From positions 1 through 41,266 of the IMG/VR virus record IMGVR_UViG_3300042340_000168: DNA of 41,266 nt, one strand, 5' to 3'. The DNA is from a virus. Position numbers and translations under genes: made by a program. Shown piece by piece: positions 33,820 through 34,591 of this stretch. Every line of letters starts with the position of its first letter. Positions within the stretch are counted from its first letter, which is position 1. The notes beneath the pieces were generated by a model. That model ran no database searches. It was not told where the DNA came from and worked only from the letters and a program-made list of their open reading frames with translations.

Positions 33820-34008
33820 ATGGCATGCAGACACAAATGGGAGCCGGTCGGAGGATGCAAAGAAAACCCCGGTGTCATGGATTCCGGGCGAGGTAGCATC
33901 GTCTACCTCGACACCTGCACCAAGTGCGGGCGAGGCCGGCGAGTAGAGGCATCTTATTGCGGGCGGACCTCAGACAAAACATACTTTTGGCAGGAGGGGC
34001 AACTATGA
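33820..34008 (+). CDS. Small Cys-rich protein, first gene of the hairpin-dense operon
   Basis: A 62-aa protein with CRH near the start and CTKCGRGRR near residue 32, possibly a zinc finger. ATG 33820 follows GGAGG from the shared leader. Its stop overlaps the next start as ATGA. The mRNA contains a long hairpin at 33871-33915. Function unknown. Confidence 0.72.
   Translation: MACRHKWEPVGGCKENPGVMDSGRGSIVYLDTCTKCGRGRRVEASYCGRTSDKTYFWQEGQL
33871..33915 (+). repeat. Large hairpin inside the small Cys-rich gene
   Basis: CGAGGTAG (33889-33896) pairs perfectly with CTACCTCG (33903-33910) around a 6-nt loop, and flanking GGTGT/ACACC add a second stem across a bulge. It lies fully within coding sequence. 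Confidence 0.75.
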
Positions 34009-34532
34009 AAACGAAACCCGCGCCGCCAAGCGGCACCCGCTGGGTAGGCCCCATCCGCTGGGAGCCCGCCGAGCGGGCCGAGCAGCCCGCAAACGAATGT
34101 GTCTGCGGAGGGACGAGATTCGGCTACCAATGCCAACTCCACGGCTACCGTGGAGTTGCCGATAACAATCTATTCGAAATCTGGGCGCGGAACGGCGAGT
34201 ACTCGACATGGGGGGGGCGCGCCCTCCATGTCGAAGGCGACCGAGTGTGGGTCGCAGTGCCCCTCCGGGTATCGTGGCTCGCCGGTCAAGTAGCCGCTGC
34301 AGGCGGCACGGACGGAACGCACTGGCAGGAGCGTTCGTCCCTGCAAAATGCCGGGGAGTGGGGCTACACGGTAGCCCACCAAGGTATGGACATTACCGTC
34401 GTCTACGGTGGGCGGGGAGAGTTTTCTCTGCACAACCCCCCGTACAAGCGGGGGAGCAGAGCCTATAGGGCCCTTGTGGAATCCCTTTGGCCCAAGGGAA
34501 TCCCCCATCCGAGCAATTTCACCGGATGGTAA
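34005..34532 (+). CDS. Hypothetical protein encoded by a hairpin-dense gene
   Basis: A 175-aa protein starting MKTKPAPPSGTRWVGPIRWE, with AGGAGGGG before ATG 34005 and an ATGA overlap with the upstream gene. Trp- and Gly-rich, with a CVCGG-x(n)-CQL cysteine group near residue 32-42 and a beta-rich remainder (VWVAVPLRVSWLAGQV). No family is recognised. Its coding sequence contains at least eight perfect or near-perfect inverted repeats, several with 3-nt loops, far more than its neighbours. Codon choice here seems shaped by RNA structure as well as protein. Confidence 0.72.
   Translation: MKTKPAPPSGTRWVGPIRWEPAERAEQPANECVCGGTRFGYQCQLHGYRGVADNNLFEIWARNGEYSTWGGRALHVEGDRVWVAVPLRVSWLAGQVAAAGGTDGTHWQERSSLQNAGEWGYTVAHQGMDITVVYGGRGEFSLHNPPYKRGSRAYRALVESLWPKGIPHPSNFTGW
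34022..34078 (+). repeat. Three consecutive small hairpins
   Basis: GCCGC-caa-GCGGC (34022-34034), ACCC-gct-GGGT (34035-34045) and GCCCGC-cga-GCGGGC (34064-34078), each a perfect stem with a 3-nt loop. Confidence 0.75.
34134..34158 (+). repeat. 11-bp perfect hairpin
   Basis: CAACTCCACGG and CCGTGGAGTTG, perfect 11-bp arms around CTA, inside the coding sequence. Confidence 0.85.
34203..34255 (+). repeat. Two further strong hairpins
   Basis: TCGACATGG (34203-34211) pairs with CCATGTCGA (34226-34234) around the palindrome GGGCGCGCCC; then GCGACC-gagtgtg-GGTCGC (34237-34255). Confidence 0.8.
34293..34461 (+). repeat. Further hairpins in the distal half of the gene
   Basis: GCCGC-tgcag-GCGGC (34293-34307); GACGGAACGC with GCGTTCGTC (34311-34339, one unpaired base); GTGGGGCTAC-acg-GTAGCCCAC near 34359-34380 with one unpaired base; ACCGT-cgtct-ACGGT (34395-34409); CTCTGC with GCAGAG enclosing CCCCC/GGGGG (34426-34461). 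Confidence 0.7.
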
Positions 34533-34561
34533 TTCGGGCTACCAGCTAGGCTGATAGCACC

Positions 34562-34591
34562 GCCTGCCAGCAAATATTCAGCCTGGCAGGC
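34562..34591 (+). terminator. Strong hairpin after the operon, possible terminator
   Basis: GCCTGCCAG and CTGGCAGGC, perfect 9-bp arms with a 12-nt loop, 29 bp after the stop codon. No T-run follows, so it may stabilise the RNA end rather than terminate. Confidence 0.5.

Follow-up and report, generated by a model that had tools for sequence, protein, structure and literature searches.

Introduction

Strong folding of coding sequence is known from whole genomes of RNA viruses, and in DNA phages as a slight bias of the average gene. The single-stranded RNA phages (Leviviricetes, MS2) carry dense local hairpins in their coding sequences, and in MS2 the ribosome site of a downstream gene is paired inside the upstream gene. 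For dsDNA viruses, PMC3072339 describes genes in which folding is reduced around the start, with a tendency to slightly higher stability than expected further downstream, and a survey of conserved structures in viral mRNAs (PMC6563262) cites GORS. The two-gene operon described here lies in a tailed dsDNA phage, and the codon choice of its second gene, ORF 2, gives the RNA a computed fold far stronger than that of synonymous recodings.

Results

Phage genome

The window (the whole stretch of DNA analysed, 41,266 bases) corresponds to the IMG/VR virus record IMGVR_UViG_3300042340_000168 and belongs to a tailed dsDNA phage, with genes for tape measure, portal, large terminase, major head protein, head-tail adaptor, thymidylate synthase and DNA methyltransferases. 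An antirestriction-like ArdA is encoded at 35259-35792, and its nearest proteins were mostly those of Gordonia and Rhodococcus phages (25-30% identity). Bacillus phages stood at the top of the terminase matches listed (about 25% identity), and the nearest capsid protein in the bacterial genome collection was found on a Myxococcales MAG contig (65% identity). The capsid-protein relatives (L009-L017 and the 60-kb record G002, the capsid protein of which is 81% identical) had the structural genes in common with this phage but not the early region with the operon. The switch from minus-strand structural genes to plus-strand early genes is located at 31001-32700, a stretch with few genes, a sign flip of the AT skew and the GC skew maximum (0.254). 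Elsewhere in the window, many repeated CGCACGCGCACG-type words were seen by eye at 36770-37130, and strong minus-strand folding was recorded at 40701-40900 and 37101-37300 (z -5.9 and -4.7, respectively, in 200-nt windows).

Organization of the operon

The operon and the modules around it are as follows.

33762-33790, plus strand: promoter-like module P1, TTGCCT-N17-TACATA, with the spacer palindrome GTACCC-N6-GGGTAC (putative repressor operator)
33820-34008, plus strand: ORF 1, 62 aa, rich in Cys (CxxC), without a match to any family
33968-33997, plus strand: predicted hairpin pairing the Shine-Dalgarno sequence of ORF 2, GAGG (about 33994-33997) with CCTC (33968-33971) in ORF 1
34005-34532, plus strand: ORF 2, 175 aa, hairpin-dense coding sequence
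34630-34658, plus strand: P2, second copy of the module, preceding the next gene (34688-35161)
35176-35204: P3, less exact copy of the module, preceding ArdA

A purine-rich ribosome site is present before each ORF, and the stop codon of ORF 1 and the start codon of ORF 2 share ATGA at 34005-34008. In the local fold, the whole fold and the pairing probabilities alike, the Shine-Dalgarno sequence of ORF 2 was predicted to be paired and its start codon to be unpaired. The overlap together with a Shine-Dalgarno sequence paired in ORF 1 is the usual layout for translational coupling: the hairpin would be opened by ribosomes on ORF 1, and the translation of ORF 2 may thereby be tied to that of ORF 1.

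The P1-type module was read, from its sequence, as a putative promoter with an operator. A strict sigma-70 scan called no promoter at P1, so that this reading rests on the repetition of the module. Since like modules (P1 and P2) flank the operon, it would form a cassette between them. Together, P1, P2 and P3 are candidates for an early-region regulon under a repressor, and a looser relative of the module was found at about 32699. The pattern TTGCC-N4-TACCC-N6-GGGTACA matched two IMG/VR contigs, and the match on contig L003 was unlike the module.

Coding evidence and searches for relatives

An ATG frame as long as that of ORF 2 arose in 16 of 2000 dinucleotide shuffles, and the frame had the top codon score among the six frames, although this score (-0.06) was low, the majority of the other genes in the window having scores of about 0.06 to 0.29. 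The raw score pointed to a recent foreign gene. After correction for amino-acid content, synonymous codon use was unusual in ORF 1 (z -3.9) and mildly off in ORF 2 (z of only -2.65), so that ORF 2 is weakly indicated as recently acquired; other ORFs of the phage, among them the tape measure gene (2841-7550) and the ORF at 10224-10751, were further off than ORF 2. Both ORF 1 and ORF 2 were taken as genes, the latter with some reserve.

The ORF 2 protein had no match in Pfam, PHROGs or PDB sequences, and its AlphaFold model from the single sequence had a pLDDT of 49.5. Neither were homologues found in phages, plasmids, IMG/VR contigs (queried with the full-length protein and separately with its two halves) or GTDB-genome contigs, nor in ten virus records with a related major capsid protein (MCP) or the Myxococcales MAG with a related MCP. 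Against 377 genomes of the phylum of this MAG, hits in five genomes (E 7e-4 to 8e-3) were short partial alignments and were taken as chance. For ORF 1, PHROGs gave only two matches (E 0.07 and 0.48), matches at E 6 only were obtained in the best 20 of 30 records, and the ten MCP-related virus records gave none. A known RNA family was also sought; Rfam 15 gave no match up to E 1 at 32000-36500 and none at the gathering score in the window.

Hairpins in the operon

The hairpins are listed below, with z values where computed.

33889-33910, plus strand: hairpin in ORF 1, 8 bp
34022-34077, plus strand: hairpin cluster, GCCGC-CAA-GCGGC (34022-34034) followed by a compound stem (34036-34077)
34134-34158, plus strand: perfect 11-bp stem, CAACTCCACGG/CCGTGGAGTTG, 3-nt loop, z -5.3
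34203-34234, plus strand: 13-pair stem with 9 perfect outer pairs, arms TCGACATGG/CCATGTCGA, z -5.6
34310-34340, plus strand: stem GGACG.AACGC/GCGTTCGTCC, z -2.3 (5 of 200 shuffles as good)
34358-34379, plus strand: stem GTGGGGCTAC-ACG-GTAGCCCAC, z -2.0 (10 of 200 shuffles as good)
34426-34461, plus strand: two-part stem, CTCTGC/CCCCCCG ... CGGGGG/GCAGAG, z -4.9
34536-34591, plus strand: two hairpins past the ORF 2 stop, 9-bp outer stem GCCTGCCAG/CTGGCAGGC, z -4.0

The original prediction, made by eye, placed an 11-bp inverted repeat with a 3-nt loop at 34134-34158 and another repeat at 34203-34234, and both were recovered exactly there. It also described three consecutive stems with 3-nt loops at 34022-34078; the repeats are present, but the predicted fold retains only the first as such and merges the others into the compound stem. 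Downstream of ORF 2 the inverted repeats form stems at 34542-34590 and 34562-34591. Because the hairpins at 34536-34591 are not accompanied by a U-run they are not a canonical terminator, and none was called at these hairpins in a terminator scan of the plus strand.

Folding compared with shuffled sequences

The region 33800-34600 (801 bases) had an MFE z of -5.78 relative to 20 dinucleotide shuffles. In a local fold test, in which the base-pair span was limited to 60, the energy of ORF 2 was -238.2 kcal/mol, compared with means of -192.6 kcal/mol for synonymous shuffles (z -5.49, 0 of 1000 as stable), -194.5 kcal/mol for shuffles that were both synonymous and dinucleotide-preserving (z -5.54, 0 of 400) and -189.3 kcal/mol for plain dinucleotide shuffles (z -6.11, 0 of 1000). 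The excess over chance was thus confirmed: ORF 2 was more stable than every synonymous and dinucleotide control, so that the first refuting condition of the original prediction, a folding energy within the range of shuffled controls, did not arise. ORF 1 had a local synonymous z of -2.3. The excess in ORF 2 was distributed, with z at or below -1.9 in 6 of 16 overlapping 60-nt windows, and was absent from the first of these, which contains the start codon. Stems in ORF 2 had a mean length of 5.0 pairs (3.8 in shuffles), 8 stems had seven or more pairs (3.7 in shuffles), and perfect Watson-Crick hairpins (at least 6 bp, loops of 3-8 nt) numbered 6 compared with 1.4 in synonymous shuffles, one of 48 of which reached 6.

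Neighbouring genes had been said to show no such density, which is mostly true. The exceptions are the genes at 33371-33703 and 38950-39381, with synonymous whole-fold z values of -5.0 and -3.1, respectively. The former has a local z of only -2.7 to -2.9 and contains a 22-nt imperfect inverted repeat (33552-33573/33642-33663). The latter is a folded, codon-atypical gene (codon usage z -5.3; z -6.0 in the 200-nt window at 39101) and has no PHROGs match; its neighbour at 38557-38916 matches two families of unknown function.

Sense and antisense strands

The sense strand of ORF 2 folded 16 kcal/mol better than the antisense strand, compared with 3 kcal/mol in shuffles, and this gap was reached in 10 of 200. 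Good folding was seen on the antisense strand too (z between -3.9 and -4.4), and G-U pairs were not depleted (0.129, compared with 0.110 in shuffles). The genes of MS2 showed little asymmetry between strands in the same test; since these function as RNA and are likewise near-symmetric, the strand test hardly discriminates and weakly favours RNA.

Folding compared with other phage genes

At 20 shuffles each, the local z of ORF 2 (-6.5) was the lowest among 110 dsDNA-phage ORFs, namely 24 from the window and 86 from three isolated actinophages. The 24 window ORFs had a mean local z of -0.75 with ORF 2 included, and ORF 2 alone was below -3; the mean for each actinophage lay between -0.55 and -1.78. 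In a further set of 839 ORFs from IMG/VR and MAG contigs (20 shuffles), three had z at or below -5.5: a repeat array on contig L038, judged non-coding, a metallophosphoesterase gene on L058 and an exonuclease gene on L056. The first two of these scored lower than ORF 2. When rerun with 200 shuffles, the L038 array being left out, ORF 2 gave z -5.8, the metallophosphoesterase gene -5.1 and the exonuclease gene -4.3. No tested ORF on the capsid-related contigs (pieces of L009, L011-L015 and L100-L107) was as folded as ORF 2, the minimum z being -3.7. By GC-corrected folding in 500-nt windows the operon region ranked 26 of 5510, and by raw hairpin count 22 of 10,660 phage windows contained at least six hairpins, one 528-nt frame at ORF 2 being one of them. 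Few other phage ORFs or windows match ORF 2, which accordingly lies in the far tail and is rare but not unique.

The stretch L038 1500-2250 outranks the operon by folding, yet it is a repeat array outside convincing genes and was judged to be a different thing; direct and inverted ATGTAAGTC repeats and GGTCGCC-type tandem repeats occupy 1670-2200, which is apparently non-coding and very hairpin-dense. Ordinary enzyme genes can also be folded, as seen at L058 7092-7793 and 17667-18101 and at L056 16077-16697 (metallophosphoesterase, dUTPase and exonuclease), for which z was -4.3 to -5.1 at 200 shuffles, and contig L058 looks folded over much of its stretch. Because such enzyme genes are strongly folded, the fold of ORF 2 need not be tied to the function of the gene.

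Discussion

We read the locus, with middling confidence, as an accessory (moron-like) early operon between two promoter/operator-like modules, the mRNA of which has been selected for a row of local hairpins. Selection on the fold, as the original prediction had it, is partly supported, the folding energy of ORF 2 lying outside the range of all shuffles and beyond nearly all other phage ORFs. The fold would act at the mRNA level, most likely by keeping the mRNA compact and its decay slow and by coupling the translation of ORF 2 to that of ORF 1.

The main rival, to which we give a real but minority share of probability, is that the cassette came recently from a lineage with folded coding sequences throughout its genome and has retained that style. 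Such lineages exist, as illustrated by contig L058 (mean z -3.0 over 10 ORFs, ordinary enzymes -4.5 to -7.1), and the mean z of -0.75 of this phage's own genes (ORF 2 included), the unusual synonymous codon use of ORF 1, the repeated modules at both ends, which would permit cassette swapping, and the absence of the early region from the 60-kb relative are all consistent with it. The codon use of ORF 2, however, is only mildly off, other genes of the phage being further off, and no donor was found. An origin at the DNA level appears rather unlikely; quasi-palindrome template switching would then have produced the palindromes, or they would have a role as DNA structures, and the folding of the RNA would be incidental. 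Palindromes with full Watson-Crick pairing are frequent among the stems, and the antisense strand folds well, while the better folding of the sense strand and the undepleted G-U pairs speak for RNA in a test that hardly discriminates. Since the preference for the sense strand is weak (about 1 in 20), some weight stays with this origin.

It is improbable that the locus is a non-coding structured RNA in which the 175-aa frame is accidental. The protein without family or homologue and the low codon score would fit such an RNA, but the length of the frame is seldom reached in shuffles, the frame scores best of six and is preceded by a Shine-Dalgarno sequence and an ATGA overlap, and Rfam gave no match. 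We regard it as very improbable that ORF 2 is simply the tail of a broad distribution without selection: the gene was chosen by visual inspection in the course of an extensive scan, three of the 839 phage ORFs had z of -5.5 or lower at 20 shuffles and 21 other overlapping windows equalled or exceeded its hairpin count, but none of 1000 shuffles was as stable, three different nulls agreed, no other window ORF fell under -3 in the local test, and the extreme control genes are probably selected themselves.

Beyond selection for a row of local hairpins, a more specific reading, distinctly unlikely in our estimate, is a two-in-one mRNA that would be the message for a small protein and also, through its RNA-phage-like fold, an RNA acting itself, either as a nuclease-resistant RNA or as a decoy against an RNA-targeting host defence. 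The early region also carries the ArdA-like antirestriction gene. In a bolder form of this reading, the cassette would once have been part of an RNA genome and been captured as DNA. Leviviral protein homology was absent in Pfam, PHROGs and PDB sequences, which is a weak test of such capture; the leviviral families are diverse and sparsely represented in these libraries. If the fold does shield early mRNA from a host RNA-targeting defence, the phage would have a counter-defence that is encoded in its choice of codons. As the neighbouring genes are mostly unfolded and serve as internal controls, the locus offers a clean case for asking what structure in coding sequence does.

Comparison with known systems

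A brief look at the open-access literature yielded general studies of structure in viral coding regions, and none that described a dsDNA phage with one gene folded like those of RNA phages. The folding bias described in PMC3072339 was obtained by the same synonymous-site Z-score approach, and it is there a small genome-wide mean, whereas ORF 2 is one gene with z -5.5. With GORS the locus shares an excess of folding over composition-matched or order-shuffled sequence, in this gene only; GORS is genome-wide, whereas the other genes of this phage are mostly near zero. Translationally coupled bicistronic operons have the same stop-start overlap and a Shine-Dalgarno sequence of the second gene predicted to be paired within the first. 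To our knowledge, the remainder of the second gene in ordinary coupled operons is not so folded, unlike in ORF 2. Compared with the ssRNA phages, the density of local hairpins in coding sequence is alike, as is the predicted pairing of a downstream ribosome site inside the upstream gene, but the density occurs here in a dsDNA phage and in a single gene instead of a genome, with no protein similarity found. In the same test with 20 shuffles three genes of MS2 gave z values of -5.5 (coat gene), -8.8 and -10.2, and the fold density of ORF 2 is within the range of the MS2 coat gene.
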